Origin: Candidatus Marinarcus aquaticus
GTDB taxonomy: Bacteria; Campylobacterota; Campylobacteria; Campylobacterales; Arcobacteraceae
Assembly: GCF_004116335.1 (NCBI RefSeq)
Contig: NZ_PDKN01000005.1
Coordinates: 1-64,000, forward strand
Direction of reading: 5' to 3'
Length of the DNA: 64,000 nt
The stretch's first letter is position 1. Every line of letters starts with the position of its first letter. The translations under genes were made by a program, and so were the position numbers. Shown piece by piece: positions 511 through 7,715 of the stretch. Under the pieces are notes generated by a model. That model did not search any database. It saw nothing but the letters and a program-made list of their open reading frames with translations, and was not told the DNA's origin.

Positions 511-2421
511 ATGTCAGAAAATATTTATCAAAAACAAGCCGATACGATTCGTTTCTTAGCAGCGGATATGGTGCAAAAAGCAAACAGCGGACACCCAGGT
601 GCACCAATGGGTCTTGCTGATATTGCAACAGTATTAAGCAAACATTTAAATGTAAACCCAAATAATTCTTCATGGTTAAACAGAGACCGTTTAGTATTTA
701 GTGGTGGACATGCAACGGGGTTAGTATACTCATTGCTTCACTTATGGGGATTTGATGTCTCAGTAGAAGATATGAAAAATTTCAGACAAAGTGGTTCTAA
801 AACTCCAGGTCACCCCGAGTTTGGTCATACACATGGTGTAGAAATTACAACGGGACCTTTGGGACAAGGAATTGCCAATGCCGTTGGTTTTGCATGGGCT
901 GCTAAATATGCACAAAACCTTTTAGGGAAAGAGACCATCAATCATAAAGTGTACTGCTTATGTGGAGATGGAGATTTACAAGAGGGTATTTCATATGAGG
1001 CGTGTTCAACGGCAGGTCACCAAAAGCTTGATAACTTAGTGATTATTTATGATTCAAATAATATCACCATTGAAGGGGATACTTCTATTGCTTGGGATGA
1101 AGATGTATTACAACGATTTGAAGCGATGAACTTTGAAGTGTTGGAGATTGATGGACATGATCACAGAGTCATAGATGCTGCACTTGCAAAAGCAAAAAAC
1201 GCATCACGACCTGTTCTCATCAAAGCCAATACGGCTATTGGAAAAGGTGCAGCTACGATGGAAGGCAGTCATCACACACACGGTGCGCCATTAGGCGTTG
1301 ATGAGATTAAAGCGTCAAAAATAAAAGCAGGATTTGATCCTGAGGCTTCATTTGTAGTATCTGATGATGTGAAAGCAGCTTTTGATAAAACACAAAGTGG
1401 TCAAGCACTTGAAGATGCATGGAACAGTGCATTAACTCAAGAAGTAAAAGCAAAAATTGAGGCACTTCAAAATCCAGATTTTGATGCTATAGAGTATCCA
1501 GATTTTTCTGACGTACCTAAAACTGCAACCAGAGATTCAAACCATAAAATCTTAAATGCAATTGCAAAAGCAGTACCTGGGTTTATTGGTGGAAGTGCCG
1601 ATTTAGCACCATCAAACAAAACAGAACTTAAAGAGATGGGTGATTTTCCAAAGGGTAAGAACATTCACTTTGGAATTAAAGAGCATGCAATGGCTGCAAT
1701 GAGTAATGCGATGAACTTGTATGGACTTTTTAGAGTATTCTCTGCAACATTTTTTGTGTTCTCTGATTATTTAAAACCCGCTGCAAGAATTGCAGCGTTG
1801 GCAAATATTCCACAACATTTTATTTGGACACATGACTCTATTGGTGTAGGTGAAGATGGACCAACACACCAACCAATTGAACACTTATCTCAGTTTAGAG
1901 CGTTACCCAACTTTTATGTATTCAGACCTGCAGATGCAACTGAAAATGTGGCGTGTTGGAAAACTGCTCTTAAAATGAATGCACCAAGTGCATTTGTTTG
2001 TTCTCGACAAGGGTTAGAGACACTTAAACCAAAAAGAGATTTTGGTGAAGTCAGCAACGGCGGATACCTTATGAGAAAACGAGATGGTGCAACGGTTACT
2101 ATTATGGCCAGTGGGAGTGAATTGATGTTGGCACTTAAAGCAGGGTGTCAATTAGAAAAAGAGGGTGTCAAAGCAAACATTGTTTCTGTGCCTTGTTTTG
2201 ATCTGTTTGTAGAGCAAGATAAATCATACATTGATGCTGTGATTGATTCATCTACAAAAGTATTTGCGTTAGAAGCTGCACGTGGTCTGGAGTACTATAA
2301 ATTTGCGGACGAGGTGATTGGAATGGATACATTTGGAGCCAGTGGTCCAGCTGATGAACTCTTTAAAGAGTTCGGTTTCACCGTTGAATCAGTAGTAGCT
2401 AGAGTAAAAGCCTCTTTATAA
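511..2421 (+). CDS. tkt: Transketolase
   Basis: Thiamine diphosphate enzyme that moves two-carbon units between sugar phosphates in the non-oxidative pentose phosphate pathway, in the cytoplasm. At 636 residues it has near-normal family length. The N-terminal half carries the SGGHA segment (His67) and the cofactor motif GDGDLQEG from residue 152, followed by DSNNITIEGD. The middle domain has GGSADLAPSN and the transketolase segment IWTHDSIGVGEDGPTHQP, and the C-terminal domain follows. The start is supported by a TAGGAATATT leader. The partner enzyme transaldolase lies far away at 35490. The gene appears monocistronic, with its own promoter and a hairpin just after the stop. Confidence 0.97.
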   Translation: MSENIYQKQADTIRFLAADMVQKANSGHPGAPMGLADIATVLSKHLNVNPNNSSWLNRDRLVFSGGHATGLVYSLLHLWGFDVSVEDMKNFRQSGSKTPGHPEFGHTHGVEITTGPLGQGIANAVGFAWAAKYAQNLLGKETINHKVYCLCGDGDLQEGISYEACSTAGHQKLDNLVIIYDSNNITIEGDTSIAWDEDVLQRFEAMNFEVLEIDGHDHRVIDAALAKAKNASRPVLIKANTAIGKGAATMEGSHHTHGAPLGVDEIKASKIKAGFDPEASFVVSDDVKAAFDKTQSGQALEDAWNSALTQEVKAKIEALQNPDFDAIEYPDFSDVPKTATRDSNHKILNAIAKAVPGFIGGSADLAPSNKTELKEMGDFPKGKNIHFGIKEHAMAAMSNAMNLYGLFRVFSATFFVFSDYLKPAARIAALANIPQHFIWTHDSIGVGEDGPTHQPIEHLSQFRALPNFYVFRPADATENVACWKTALKMNAPSAFVCSRQGLETLKPKRDFGEVSNGGYLMRKRDGATVTIMASGSELMLALKAGCQLEKEGVKANIVSVPCFDLFVEQDKSYIDAVIDSSTKVFALEAARGLEYYKFADEVIGMDTFGASGPADELFKEFGFTVESVVARVKASL

Positions 2422-2430
2422 TAACACACT

Positions 2431-2457
2431 AAAACAGAAGAACCTCTCTTCTGTTTT
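2431..2457. terminator. Bidirectional terminator between tkt and the GlpM-like gene
   Basis: AAAACAGAAGA and TCTTCTGTTTT form a perfect 11-base-pair stem with a five-base loop. The A-run on one side and T-run on the other would act in both directions. The right arm touches the stop codon of the convergent gene (stop at 2456-2458). Confidence 0.7.
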
Positions 2458-2791
2458 ATACCAACTTCTGCCAAACAACAATCAAAATGGCTGCAAAAAT
2501 AATCCAAATAAATGTTGAAATCATTAAGTTCATCCAAAGATCATACTTTTCAGCTAAAATATACACACTTAAAAGATAGGCCAAATAAGGGATGATAGAG
2601 AATATTCCAAACAGAGCGGTGGTCTTTAATTCTACAGGACCTCGTTCGATGCCTACTATGGCGTGGGCAATCAGTGCAAAGGTTGGGAAAAGTGGTACTA
2701 AGCCTGCAATGTAGTAGTTTCTGCTTTTTGCTAGAAGTGCCATGATGATAACCATCACTGCACCAATGAGTGCTTTAAATGCTAATCCCAT
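2456..2791 (-). CDS. GlpM-family inner-membrane protein
   Basis: A 111-residue protein made almost wholly of four hydrophobic stretches, near residues 2-20, 24-45, 58-80 and 88-110. The segment SRNYYIAGLVPLFPTFALIA, followed by a conserved ERG, resembles the GlpM family, first linked to alginate and glycerol metabolism in Pseudomonas. The biochemical role is unknown. AGGAAG precedes the start codon. It is read toward tkt and shares the hairpin at its 3' end. The family assignment is by recognised sequence pattern; function is not inferred. Confidence 0.75.
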   Translation of the reverse strand: MGLAFKALIGAVMVIIMALLAKSRNYYIAGLVPLFPTFALIAHAIVGIERGPVELKTTALFGIFSIIPYLAYLLSVYILAEKYDLWMNLMISTFIWIIFAAILIVVWQKLV

Positions 2792-2842: not shown

Positions 2843-2956
2843 TTAAAGTGCAGATTTTCTTTTTCTTTTTCGTTCAAATTTACGTTTGGCATTTTTACCT
2901 GTTTCATAAGTTAAAGCAACTGTTATTAAAGCAGCTACGGGTAAAATAAATGGCAT
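2843..2956 (-). CDS. Small basic membrane peptide, 37 residues
   Basis: A short frame with ATG at 2956 and TAA at 2843. The leader has AAGGA followed by six bases before ATG, a good ribosome site. The product begins MPFILPVAALITVALTYETG, one hydrophobic segment, and continues as a strongly basic tail containing ERKRKRKS. This looks like a single-pass membrane peptide with a positively charged cytoplasmic tail. It lies between the GlpM-like gene and fur, in the same direction, and has a Fur-box-like sequence 12 bases upstream of its start. I do not recognise a family. The good ribosome site and the contrast between the two halves favour a real gene. Confidence 0.6.
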   Translation of the reverse strand: MPFILPVAALITVALTYETGKNAKRKFERKRKRKSAL

Positions 2957-2967
2957 TTTTATTCCTT

Positions 2968-2986
2968 AATAATGATAATGAATATT
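2968..2986. promoter_or_regulatory. Fur-box-like site upstream of the small peptide
   Basis: The 19 bases AATAATGATAATGAATATT match 15 of 19 positions of the classical Fur box GATAATGATAATCATTATC. The site lies between the 3' end of fur and the small basic peptide, where it could repress the peptide under iron-replete conditions. AT-rich DNA raises the chance of such matches. Confidence 0.45.
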
Positions 2987-3046
2987 AAAATTATAGTAAA
3001 ATATTCTGTGTTTTAACTTAAATGCAAAAAAAGTACCGTTGAGAAG

Positions 3047-3513
3047 CTATTTTGTTTGACATTTATTACAAATACCATATAAAACCATATTGTGGCTTTT
3101 GAGTTCAAAGCCTTTTTCTGAAGCAATGAGTTCTTGAAGTCGTTCCAGTTCACTGTCGTAAAACTCTACAACTTGACCACATTCATGGCAGACCAAGTGA
3201 TCATGATGTGGTTTAAAAGTGAGTTCATACCGTTTCACATTTTCATTTTCAATGCTTAAAGAGTGAATGATATGCATATCTTCTAAAAAGGTTAAGATAC
3301 GATAAACAGTTGCGATGGAGATGTTGACATTGTACTCTTCTTTGACTTTTTGTAAGATTTCATCTGCATTGAGATGTTCATGAGTATTAAAAAAGACTTT
3401 TAAGACATACTCTCTTTGAGTAGAAGTATTTAACCCTAATTACTGATAAGTCCACGAAACTTCACGATATATTCATCAAAAGTGATATTGTTTTCTATTT
3501 GATTTTTTGACAT
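3047..3513 (-). pseudogene. fur: Fur-family iron regulator, frame interrupted near the N-terminus
   Basis: From ATG at 3513 the frame reads MSKNQIENNITFDEYIVKFR... and meets TAG at 3436-3438. Going back one base at about 3437-3441 restores a complete Fur frame: ...STQREYVLKVFF, then NISIATVYRILTFLEDM (the winged helix recognition region), HHDHLVCHECG and the C-terminal metal residues to NKCQ. Adding one T (AATTAG to AATTTAG) would give about 155 residues, normal for the family and with matching spacing. The rest of the gene is intact, with no further stops. It may be a sequencing error, a recent loss, or a real -1 slip. A downstream ATG at 3277 would make only the dimerisation half. Confidence 0.85.
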
Positions 3514-3528
3514 GTGTACTCTTTATAT

Positions 3529-3547
3529 AAAAATGATAACTATAATC
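3529..3547. promoter_or_regulatory. Possible Fur site upstream of fur
   Basis: AAAAATGATAACTATAATC matches 14 of 19 positions of the classical Fur box. It lies just upstream of the fur start, where an autoregulatory site would be expected. The evidence is weak because the DNA is AT-rich. Confidence 0.3.
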
Positions 3548-3584
3548 AAAATTATATTTCCTTAACCTTAAAGCAATGTTATAA

Positions 3585-3656: not shown

Positions 3657-3965
3657 ATGGAACTTTTTTTAAATACTGTAGGTGCAATCAATGATGAGAC
3701 ACGTATCAAAATACTTGCTTTTATAAATCAAAATGAAGAGGTATGTGTTTGTGATATTGAACAATCTTTTAATATGATTCAATCGCGTATCTCGCGACAT
3801 CTTAAAATATTAAAAGAGGGAGGCTTTTTAAAAGTTAAACGTGAAGGGCGGTGGGCGTATTACAGTATTCGCTCCCCTTTAGATGTTTTTAGGCAATCAG
3901 TTTTAAAAGAGATATCCTGTTTGTCCATTGAATTACCAGAATATAAAAAGGGGTGTACTTTATAA
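3657..3965 (+). CDS. arsR: ArsR-family arsenic-responsive repressor
   Basis: A 102-residue winged-helix repressor that would release the operon when bound by arsenite. The core has DETRIKILAFI, then CVCDIEQSF (Cys pair like the ELCVC(D) metalloid site of ArsR), the recognition helix SRISRHLKILKEGG, and the wing KVKREGRWAYYSI. A C-terminal Cys pair region (SCLS...KKGC) could add ligands. AGAGGC precedes the start. The stop codon overlaps the probable start of the next gene (TAATG), showing translational coupling. It is the first gene of the ars operon and would regulate it through the inverted repeat upstream. Confidence 0.9.
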   Translation: MELFLNTVGAINDETRIKILAFINQNEEVCVCDIEQSFNMIQSRISRHLKILKEGGFLKVKREGRWAYYSIRSPLDVFRQSVLKEISCLSIELPEYKKGCTL

Positions 3966-5215
3966 TGATACTGGCTTCCGTTGTTTTTGCTTTGACTTTA
4001 TTGATGGTCATATTGCAACCTAAAAATATACAAATAGGTACAAGTGCGGTTATAGGAGCCATAGTTGCTCTTCTTTTAGGTATTGTCACTTTTGATGATG
4101 TAAAAGTGGTCACAGAAATTGTGTGGGATGCAACTTTGGCTTTTATAGGAATTATTATTCTCTCTATGGTTTTAGATGAGATTGGTTTTTTTGAGTGGTG
4201 TGCATTAAAAATGGCCAAACTTTCACATGGCAGTGGATTGAAAATGTTTATTTACTCGATTGTATTGGGTGCTTTTGTTTCCGCACTTTTTGCCAATGAT
4301 GGTGCAGCATTGATTTTAACGCCCATACTGTTAGCAAAAATGCGTATATTACAACTCAATATCAAAACCATTGTCGCTTTTTTACTTGCAGGTGGATTCA
4401 TCAGTGACAGTGCATCGTTGCCTTTTGTCTTTTCTAATTTGACTAATATTGTAACAGCAAACTATTTTGATATTGGGTTTGTAGAGTATTTGATGAACAT
4501 GTGGTTGCCTTATGTGGTGAGTGTGATTGTATCCATTGTTTTTTTATATCTGTTTTTACATAAAGATATTCCAAAGCAAGTTGATATTCGTTTGCTAAAG
4601 GAGCCTAAGAGTGCAATTAAAAATGAAAAATTGTTTAAATTATCATGGATGTTTTTGGCAGTTTTACTCGTGGGATATTTTATAGGTGATGCGTATGATT
4701 TACCCGTATCACTCTTTGCATTGGGAGGAGGATTGACTTTTCTAATGATTGCAAAGCAGTTTAAAGTAATCAAAGCACAAAAAATTATTCGTGAAGCACC
4801 TTGGCAGGTGGTGTGGTTCAGTATAGGTTTATACATTGTGGTGTATGGACTTAAAAATGCAGGTCTTACAGAGTACATAACCGTGGTATTGAAATACTTA
4901 AATGGACAAAATGAGACCGTTGCTATTATTGGTACAGGATTTATCAGTGCCTTTTTAAGTGCGATTATGAACAATATGCCAACGGTGATGGTTATGGACA
5001 TAGCGTTGCAAAATATCTCCAATGAAGCGTTGGCGTATGCCAATATCATAGGGTGTAACTTGGGACCAAAGATGACCCCATTTGGAAGTTTAGCAACACT
5101 GCTTTGGTTGCATGTATTGGCAAAAAAAGGGGTGGAAATATCATTTTTACAATACAGTAAGTTTGGTTTATTGATAACTCCACCCGTATTGTTACTTGTA
5201 TTATTAGCACTTTAA
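3965..5215 (+). CDS. arsB: ArsB/NhaD-type arsenite efflux permease
   Basis: About 416 residues with some eleven hydrophobic segments, of the ion-transporter superfamily that includes ArsB. ArsB expels arsenite across the inner membrane. Typical parts are FANDGAALILTPILLAKM in the first half and the second-half segment ISAFLSAIMNNMPTVMVMDIAL, with conserved Asn and Asp in membrane helices, then GCNLGPKMTPFGSLATLLWL. I prefer ATG at 3965, which overlaps the arsR stop and follows AAAAGGGG. A GTG at 3953 would add four residues. Neighbours on both sides are arsenic genes, which supports arsenite as substrate over sodium. Confidence 0.88.
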   Translation: MILASVVFALTLLMVILQPKNIQIGTSAVIGAIVALLLGIVTFDDVKVVTEIVWDATLAFIGIIILSMVLDEIGFFEWCALKMAKLSHGSGLKMFIYSIVLGAFVSALFANDGAALILTPILLAKMRILQLNIKTIVAFLLAGGFISDSASLPFVFSNLTNIVTANYFDIGFVEYLMNMWLPYVVSVIVSIVFLYLFLHKDIPKQVDIRLLKEPKSAIKNEKLFKLSWMFLAVLLVGYFIGDAYDLPVSLFALGGGLTFLMIAKQFKVIKAQKIIREAPWQVVWFSIGLYIVVYGLKNAGLTEYITVVLKYLNGQNETVAIIGTGFISAFLSAIMNNMPTVMVMDIALQNISNEALAYANIIGCNLGPKMTPFGSLATLLWLHVLAKKGVEISFLQYSKFGLLITPPVLLLVLLAL

Positions 5216-5223
5216 GGATAATA

Positions 5224-5778
5224 ATGGAACTTATATTAATTGCGATTGCATTGGCCATGGACAGTGTGGCTGTATCGATTGCCAGTGGGAGCAAATATCG
5301 GACAATTGATTTTTTAACCACACTGAAAATTGCACTCTTTTTTGGCTTTTTTCAAGGGTTGATGCCCTTAATTGGATACTTTTTAGGAAGCATGTTTGCG
5401 AAATTTGTGGACAGTTTTGACCACTACTTGGCATTTGCAATACTAATTTTCTTGGGGTATCGAATGATTAAAGAGGCCATGGAAGAGGATTTTGAAGAGG
5501 AAGTCAGTGATTTAAGAAACAAAACACTCTTTTTTTTAGCCATCGCTACAAGTATTGATGCTTTGGCCATTGGGATCACCTTCTCTTTTGATGACACCCC
5601 AATTTGGTATGCTGTTTCACTTATTGCTGGGATTACTTTTATTTTATGTATTATTGCTGTTTATATTGGAAAGATGTTGGGTGGATTTTTAGAAGATAAA
5701 GCAGAGTTTTTAGGTGGAGCCATATTGATTGTACTGGCATTTAAAATTTTATTGGAAGGAATAGGAGTTTTAGGATGA
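5224..5778 (+). CDS. mntP: MntP-like manganese/metal efflux protein
   Basis: A 184-residue membrane protein with six hydrophobic segments in two similar halves. Each half has an acidic membrane motif: ALAMDSVAVSIASG near residues 9-22 and ATSIDALAIGITFSF in the second half. This is the pattern of the MntP family (DUF204), which exports Mn(II) in E. coli. In this operon it sits between the arsenite pump and arsC, only eight bases after arsB, and overlaps arsC by four bases. The substrate here is therefore open: it may be manganese, or a metal relevant to arsenic stress. Confidence 0.85.
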   Translation: MELILIAIALAMDSVAVSIASGSKYRTIDFLTTLKIALFFGFFQGLMPLIGYFLGSMFAKFVDSFDHYLAFAILIFLGYRMIKEAMEEDFEEEVSDLRNKTLFFLAIATSIDALAIGITFSFDDTPIWYAVSLIAGITFILCIIAVYIGKMLGGFLEDKAEFLGGAILIVLAFKILLEGIGVLG

Positions 5779-6173
5779 AAAAAGTATTGGTTTTATGTAC
5801 AGGGAACAGTTGTCGAAGCATCATTGCAGAAGCTTTAATTAATGCCCAGTTAGAGGGAGTGCAGGCAGACTCTTCTGGAGTACGTGCAAGTGGACATGTG
5901 AATTCCAATGCGCAAAAACTGTTGGAACAAAAAGGCATCTGGAAAGAAGAATACCACTCAAAAACGATTGATACCGTGTTGGATAATGCTTATGATTTGG
6001 TTGTCACCGTGTGTGATCATGCCAATGAGACTTGTCCCATGTTCCCCAAAGCAGTTAAAGTGATTCATGTCGGTTTTGAAGACCCAGACGGAAAAGGATT
6101 TGATGCGTTTGAACAAACCTATAAAGAGATAGAAGAGGTGTTACTTCCAGCAGTGGTTGAGGCGTTAAAATAG
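5775..6173 (+). CDS. arsC: Arsenate reductase, low-molecular-weight phosphatase type
   Basis: A 132-residue cytoplasmic enzyme that reduces arsenate to arsenite for export. The P-loop CTGNSCRS (Cys8 to Ser15) is the catalytic motif shared with low-molecular-weight tyrosine phosphatases. VTVCDHANETCPMFP supplies the second and third redox cysteines of the thioredoxin-coupled ArsC class, and HVGFEDPDGKG contains the general-acid Asp region. It overlaps mntP by ATGA and abuts the next gene with no gap, so it is translated as part of the operon. The thioredoxin-like gene further down could be its reductant. Confidence 0.93.
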   Translation: MKKVLVLCTGNSCRSIIAEALINAQLEGVQADSSGVRASGHVNSNAQKLLEQKGIWKEEYHSKTIDTVLDNAYDLVVTVCDHANETCPMFPKAVKVIHVGFEDPDGKGFDAFEQTYKEIEEVLLPAVVEALK

Positions 6174-7136
6174 ATGTTTGATTGGCTTGTTGATGTAAGT
6201 GCGATATTGGTCTTTGAGATATTGGGAATAGGAGAGTTAACTCACTTTGGGAAAGCGTTGCACTTTTTTATTTATGATACGATTAAGATTTTTATTCTTC
6301 TTATTACGATTATTTATTTCGTAACTTTTTTACGAAGTTATTTTCCTGTTGAGAAAATTCGTGATTATTTAGTGGGAAAACACAGGTTCGTAGGACACAT
6401 CTTTGCTGCATTTTTTGGCATGCTGACGCCTTTTTGTTCATGCAGTGCCATTCCTTTATTTTTAGGTTTTTTACAAGCTCGAATTCCTTTGGGAGTCACT
6501 TTTTCATATCTTATTTCAGCGCCTTTAAGTGATGCCGTGGTGATTGCCTTATTGTTTTCAATGTTTGGTTGGAAAATTACTCTGCTTTATATTGGGTTTG
6601 CATTGCTCATAGCTATTATTTCAGGACTCATTATAGGAACGATGAAGTTAGAAAAAGAGGTTTTAATTGAAGTAAAACCCATAAACAGCTGTTGCAACGG
6701 TTCGATGGAAATAACTATATTGTTGCAACAACGATTCAAAGAGGCATGGGAATATACCATGGATATTTTTAAAAAAATCTATATTTATGTCATTATAGGT
6801 ATTGGAATTGGGGCCTTTATTCATGGATATATTCCTGCAGATTTCATCAGTAAATATGCTGGAGGAGATGTATGGTATGCCCCAATGGTGGCGGTACTTA
6901 TGGGAATTCCTATGTACTCTAATGCTGCAGGTATTTTACCTTTGGTTGAAGTGCTTACGCAAAAAGGGATGCTTTTAGGAACGGCACTGAGTTTCATGAT
7001 GGCAGTCGTGGCACTGAGCCTTCCTGAAGCAATGATTTTAAAACGTGTTTTAAGTATGAAACTTATAGGTATATTTTTTGGAATTGTAGGGTGTGCCATT
7101 TTATTGGTGGGATTTGTATTTAATATGATTTTATAA
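6174..7136 (+). CDS. arsP: ArsP/DUF318-type permease
   Basis: A 320-residue integral membrane protein with about eight hydrophobic helices. The hallmark of the family, a cysteine-rich TPFCSCSAIPLFLGFL followed by GVTFSYLISAPLSD, is present near residues 80-115. A central hydrophilic loop contains NSCCNGS, extra cysteines that could bind a soft metal. A second permease half carries GIPMYSNAAGILPLVEVL. ArsP exports trivalent organoarsenicals in Campylobacter jejuni, and related DUF318 proteins have other or unknown substrates. The start follows the arsC stop directly. Confidence 0.85.
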   Translation: MFDWLVDVSAILVFEILGIGELTHFGKALHFFIYDTIKIFILLITIIYFVTFLRSYFPVEKIRDYLVGKHRFVGHIFAAFFGMLTPFCSCSAIPLFLGFLQARIPLGVTFSYLISAPLSDAVVIALLFSMFGWKITLLYIGFALLIAIISGLIIGTMKLEKEVLIEVKPINSCCNGSMEITILLQQRFKEAWEYTMDIFKKIYIYVIIGIGIGAFIHGYIPADFISKYAGGDVWYAPMVAVLMGIPMYSNAAGILPLVEVLTQKGMLLGTALSFMMAVVALSLPEAMILKRVLSMKLIGIFFGIVGCAILLVGFVFNMIL

Positions 7137-7148
7137 AAAGGATAAGAG

Positions 7149-7382
7149 ATGAAAATAGAAGTTTTAGGAACAGGATGTACAAAGTGCACAACCTTAGAAG
7201 AAGCCGCCAAACAAGCTGTAGTACAAATAGGAGGCTTTCATGAGGTTAGTAAAGTAGAAGATATAGTTGAAATCATGAATTATGGTGTGATGAGTACACC
7301 CGCATTGGTTGTTGATGGTGTCGTTAAAAGTAGTGGAAAACTTTTAAGCGTGGATGAGATTGTACAATTGCTTAAGGACTAA
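7149..7382 (+). CDS. Small thioredoxin-fold protein with CxxC
   Basis: A 77-residue single-domain protein of the 'redox-active disulfide protein 2' type. It has the motif GTGCTKCTTLEE (CTKC near residues 10-13), a cis-proline region MSTPALVVDG, and a C-terminal helix. Proteins of this kind commonly sit beside DUF318 permeases. It could supply reducing equivalents to ArsC or carry a thiol-bound metal to the permease. Operon membership is clear from the 12-base gap. The leader has AAAAGGATAAG. Confidence 0.85.
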   Translation: MKIEVLGTGCTKCTTLEEAAKQAVVQIGGFHEVSKVEDIVEIMNYGVMSTPALVVDGVVKSSGKLLSVDEIVQLLKD

Positions 7383-7385
7383 AAT

Positions 7386-7715
7386 ATGATAATTAATTTG
7401 GGTTTATTTTTCTTAGCCGCTTTTTTTGAGATTTTTGGTTGTTTTGCTTTTTGGTTGTATTTTAGGCTTGAAAAAACACCGTGGTGGGTAGCTTTAGGGG
7501 TCATTTCATTAATGCTTTTTGCCTATGTATTAACCAAAATTGATGTAGAACATGCTGGGAGAGTTTATGCCATTTACGGAGGTATTTATATCGTAGCTTC
7601 GCTTATATGGTTGATATTGGTTGAAAAAGAGAGTTTTAATCGTTGGGATATTATAGGGGCGAGTGTCGCAATACTGGGAGCATTTATCATTTTTGCAGGC
7701 AATGCAAAAGTATAA
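7386..7715 (+). CDS. YnfA/UPF0060-family membrane protein
   Basis: A 109-residue protein with four membrane helices. It shows the family pattern AAFFEIFGCFAFWLYFRLEK at the N-terminus, AYVLTKIDVEHAGRVYAIYG in the middle and a C-terminal helix ending GAFIIFAGNAKV. YnfA-like proteins resemble small multidrug resistance exporters but their substrates are uncertain. It is the last gene of the ars operon, only three bases after the thioredoxin-like gene. The placement suggests an efflux role linked to metalloids, but this is inference. Confidence 0.85.
   Translation: MIINLGLFFLAAFFEIFGCFAFWLYFRLEKTPWWVALGVISLMLFAYVLTKIDVEHAGRVYAIYGGIYIVASLIWLILVEKESFNRWDIIGASVAILGAFIIFAGNAKV

Follow-up and report, generated by a model that had tools for sequence, protein, structure and literature searches.

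The fur2 gene near the beginning of the window, the stretch of 64,000 nucleotides of Candidatus Marinarcus aquaticus DNA analyzed here, is probably a recent pseudogene of an accessory, orphaned paralogue of Fur, and not a loss of the Fur of the cell. Fur2 is the name given here to the clade of Fur-family paralogues to which the window gene belongs. The frameshift is present in the assembly. From the comparisons presented below we infer the order of events, the regulatory role of Fur2 and a real mutation rather than an assembly error. The pieces of the gene are arranged as follows.

3436..3513, minus strand: 5' piece of fur2, from ATG 3513 to TAG 3438-3436, 25 codons encoding MSKNQIENNITFDEYIVKFRGLISN, which matches the N-terminal end of intact Fur2 proteins in the alignment
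3047..3439, minus strand: 3' piece of fur2, open in the neighbouring frame over 130 codons and the stop, from TTA 3439-3437 down to 3047, with the DNA-binding and metal-binding parts and no ATG, GTG or TTG until 3277
3437..3439, minus strand: sole joining point of the two frames, where the gene is one base short compared with intact orthologues

In the alignment with intact homologues the two pieces abut without gap or overlap inside one conserved stretch, and the end of the first frame is the start of the second. Immediately upstream of the junction the second frame has the stop codon TAA (3442-3440), which leaves a single point for joining the frames. A frameshift-aware alignment with the intact gene of the congener (genome G001) places one 'short' shift at 3437 and scores 38 units above the best unshifted alignment. 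A complete Fur-family gene would code the whole protein in one ORF, while the window gene is interrupted by the TAG and continues in the other frame; it carries, as a pseudogene does, a disrupting change relative to its intact orthologues. The initial annotation had described a fur gene split by a single missing base, and the stop codon, the open neighbouring frame and the exact joining with intact homologues all agree with that description. Its remark that the downstream sequence is undecayed also holds. The window gene keeps 29 of 32 near-invariant columns, against 30 of 32 in the orthologues of the congener and of G011, a genome of another genus, and its end branch in the tree is 0.36, compared with 0.50 for the intact gene of the congener. 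With the 3' part in this condition, a true loss must be very recent.

The membership of the gene in the Fur family is clear from the 3' piece alone, which scores 118 bits with the Pfam FUR model of the winged-helix and dimerisation domain (PF01475, curated cut-off 23.1). The HHDH motif and both CxxC pairs are kept, and the segments HHDHLVCHECG and CNKC align with the Fur sequences of the PDB. Among proteins of solved structure, its best matches are Fur proteins. Those of Campylobacterota, for example PDB 4ETS/6D57 and 2XIG, share the family with the window gene over the whole 129-residue fragment (E 2e-31), but differ from it in that the window gene has a broken frame and belongs to an accessory clade. 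The NCBIfam Fur model gives it 128 bits under a cut-off of 200; the canonical copy of the same genome, at 153 bits, is likewise under the cut-off.

The genome (2.53 Mb in 20 contigs, 99.98% complete) contains four Fur-family genes. The canonical Fur is intact on contig C6 (C6:137499-137879), is about 50% identical to the window gene and groups in the tree with the Fur proteins of related genomes. Besides these two, C2 carries a PerR-like gene and C1 the fourth member of the family. Synteny between C6 and the congener shows that the intact Fur belongs to the genome and that the contig is not a contaminant. The tree places the window gene outside the canonical Fur clade, in the separate Fur2 clade, together with the orthologues of the congener (67%) and G011 (59%) with support of 100/95, and with remoter members in other genera. 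A search of a database of genome contigs returned remote Fur genes only. Among the options offered earlier was a cell without Fur, and this one falls, because C6 carries an intact canonical Fur and what is broken is a second Fur, of the accessory type. Two of the other options stand, a very recent loss and an assembly error; the remaining one, recoding by a -1 shift, is not supported.

The congener has an intact orthologue at the matching locus (G001:C11:92641-93018), between an arsR/arsB cluster and a glpM-transketolase pair. Unlike the window gene, this fur2 has an operon with ATPase and ferritin-like genes directly downstream, which it heads; the same is true of the intact orthologue in G011. 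The gene order in the congener is fur2, an HMA_2 protein, a ferritin-like protein, small proteins, a P1B-type ATPase and a small ORF. The flanks are conserved in the window, but there the small ORF comes about 60 bases behind fur2, about 4.1 kb of the congener's operon is missing, and DNA homology with the congener resumes just before the small ORF. The features of the locus are listed here.

511..2421, plus strand: transketolase, syntenic flank, 83% to the congener
2456..2791, minus strand: GlpM-family gene, syntenic flank
2843..2956, minus strand: 37-codon ORF, homologous to the small ORF behind the ATPase gene in the congener's operon
2996..3056, minus strand: about 60 bases in place of about 4.1 kb in the congener (HMA_2 protein to P1B ATPase), from the locus comparison
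3657..3965, plus strand: ArsR-family regulator at the head of the arsenic-resistance cluster, syntenic flank

Of the operon behind fur2, the window keeps the 37-codon ORF alone. On the other side of fur2, a gene for a methyl-accepting chemotaxis protein (MCP) and a histidine kinase gene that precede it in the congener are both absent from the window.

It is important to compare this locus with those of other genera. The operon adjoining Fur2-type genes encodes an HMA_2 protein, a ferritin-like protein (rubrerythrin domain), small proteins and a P1B-type ATPase, and it adjoins the Fur2-type gene in 9 of the 17 examined genomes that carry such a gene (G001, G011, G003, G009, G012, G014, G015, G017 and G033). 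This adjacency in nine genomes suggests that it is probably the older state and that the operon was lost in the window lineage rather than inserted in the congener. The usual adjacency also suggests that Fur2 may be a local metal-responsive regulator of the adjoining operon. In G019, a genome of another genus, the HMA_2 gene of the operon is immediately preceded by a Fur2 relic that is heavily decayed and contains several stops (contig G019:C29, L186 about 4430-4600). This independent case shows that the loss of Fur2 recurs. The Fur2-type protein of G014 (L055 2905-3354) is intact but departs from 8 of the 32 near-invariant Fur columns, and is possibly changing function or drifting.

The genome has its own copy of the operon at 145-153 kb of contig C1 (C1:145456-152505, that is L067 5456-12505). 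This copy is intact, lies beside feoB without a fur2 gene, and encodes two P1B-type ATPases (one more than usual), an HMA_2 protein, a ferritin-like protein and small conserved proteins. It is 65.6% identical to the operon of the congener and about 66% to that of G011 or G021, while the transketolase is 83% identical to the congener's. Such uniform distance, set against the transketolase value, points to a separate acquisition or an old divergence, and the C1 operon looks separately acquired. A simple relocation from the fur2 locus to C1 is not favoured, the C1 copy being no closer to the operon of the congener than to those of other genera.

These comparisons allow us to propose an order of events. 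The operon genes beside fur2 would have been lost from the site shared with the congener, while a different version of the operon, lacking fur2, stands beside feoB on C1. An orphaned regulator is expected to be dispensable, and fur2, then under little selection, could have lost the one base that ends its frame after 25 codons. The canonical Fur remains and could still serve the small ORF and the Fur-box-like sites. Against this proposal, Fur2-type genes occur without the adjoining operon in G002, G018 and G026, so orphaning does not force decay; the undecayed 3' part demands a very recent loss; and a one-off assembly or base-calling error has to be weighed.

Two Fur-box-like sites lie close to fur2, as was noticed in the initial annotation, and both are confirmed as matches with two mismatches each to TGATAATNATTATCA.

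3534..3548: Fur-box-like palindrome located 20 bases upstream of the ATG of fur2; the congener has a 3-mismatch site at the equivalent position
2973..2987: Fur-box-like palindrome upstream of the 37-codon ORF; the congener has a matching 2-mismatch site (L059 15162-15176)

They are the only sites with at most two mismatches in the 64 kb window, where 1.1 would be expected by chance, and their weight therefore comes only from where they lie and from the conservation of these positions. These two features would fit autoregulation of fur2 and a Fur-controlled small ORF, and the conserved sites are probably covered by the canonical Fur.

The alternative that survives best is an assembly or base-calling error, in which the fur2 of the living cell is intact and the missing base is an artefact. 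It would agree with the undecayed and conserved 3' part and with the position of the gene, about 3 kb from a contig start in a draft of 20 contigs; moreover, a single error is always possible, and this is the assembly of one strain. However, in a frameshift-aware comparison of 0.98 Mb of the genome with 1.58 Mb of the congener, fur2 was the only convincing frameshift among 508 orthologue pairs (146,635 aligned amino acids, about 440 kb of coding sequence), convincing meaning that no start codon follows within ten codons behind the shift. The assembly is thus not generally indel-prone, which lowers the chance of a single error but does not remove it. Several other apparent frameshifts relative to the congener were seen at the first pass; the strongest of them, on inspection, were over-extended starts with a likely true start just behind each shift. 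In the reverse comparison, a large apparent shift in the fliG-like gene of the congener, its strongest candidate, was a run of N. The fur2 shift site is also outside any long homopolymer, and while an error would strike a random gene, the gene struck here is a regulator without its neighbouring operon that is also decaying in another genus. A search of viral contigs found no second copy of the fur2 junction. An error is accordingly rather unlikely, and a real mutation of fur2 is the probable reading.

It could also be supposed that translation restarts at ATG 3277 and gives a shorter protein of 76 amino acids, restricted to the metal-binding and dimerisation part, which would act on other Fur proteins. 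This start codon is in the right frame and the C-terminal region shows conservation, but membership in Fur2 explains that conservation equally simply. About 54 codons separate the shift from the first ATG, GTG or TTG, a protein started there would be without the DNA-binding helices, and no homologue seen in the analysis is organized as such a short form, which makes this restart very improbable.

Programmed -1 recoding at AAT TAG, also put forward in the initial annotation, would make full-length Fur2. The full conservation of the downstream frame is in its favour, but it can be considered practically negligible, since AGT AAT TAG contains no X XXY YYZ slippery heptamer, a one-base slip would leave AAT to pair with TAA (a poor re-pairing), the 70 nt downstream fold at -5.8 kcal/mol and are no more stable than shuffles (-6.4 +/- 2.4), and the orthologues of the congener and G011 encode Fur2 in one frame, so that the shift is not a conserved device. 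The junction thus has neither of the two elements of programmed -1 frameshifting, the slippery heptamer and the downstream stimulator. An Rfam search gave only a sub-threshold chance match.

With a recent pseudogene as the preferred reading, a potentially misleading claim, that of a bacterium deficient in iron regulation, is corrected to a modest one: a spare regulator would have been lost after its operon. A broader proposal can be made only tentatively, and on balance it is doubtful. Fur2 may be devoted to the control of a widespread, little-described operon resembling a metal-storage system (P1B ATPases, HMA_2 protein, ferritin-like protein) in this family of Campylobacterales. It would be discarded again and again, with the operon itself retained, moved or replaced and control passing to the canonical Fur; the present genome would then have been caught at the first mutation. 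If the linkage holds, Fur2 and the operon would form a testable metal-storage system, and the genome would show the loss of a regulator at an early stage.

With its genes for an HMA_2 protein, a ferritin-like protein and an ATPase, the operon invites comparison with the iron-storage clusters of ferrosomes (fez). Both the ferrosome clusters and the operon adjoining Fur2 contain a P-type ATPase, and both concern metal storage or handling. A ferrosome cluster is characterized by a FezC-type DUF4405 cytochrome together with a P1B-6 ATPase. The FezC protein of these clusters is a DUF4405-like cytochrome (PMC11334425). The DUF4405 domain was not found in the five operon proteins of the congener scanned against Pfam. 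The C1 operon is possibly a metal-storage system and is no clear case of a ferrosome cluster. Among named plasmid homologues of the ATPase, the nearest are from Arcobacter, at 64-69%, which points to the organism being probably a member of Arcobacteraceae. In the window itself, the arsenic and metal cluster at 3657-7715 encodes ArsR, ArsB, an MntP-like efflux protein, a protein similar to low-molecular-weight phosphatase/arsenate reductase, a permease and a thioredoxin-like protein.
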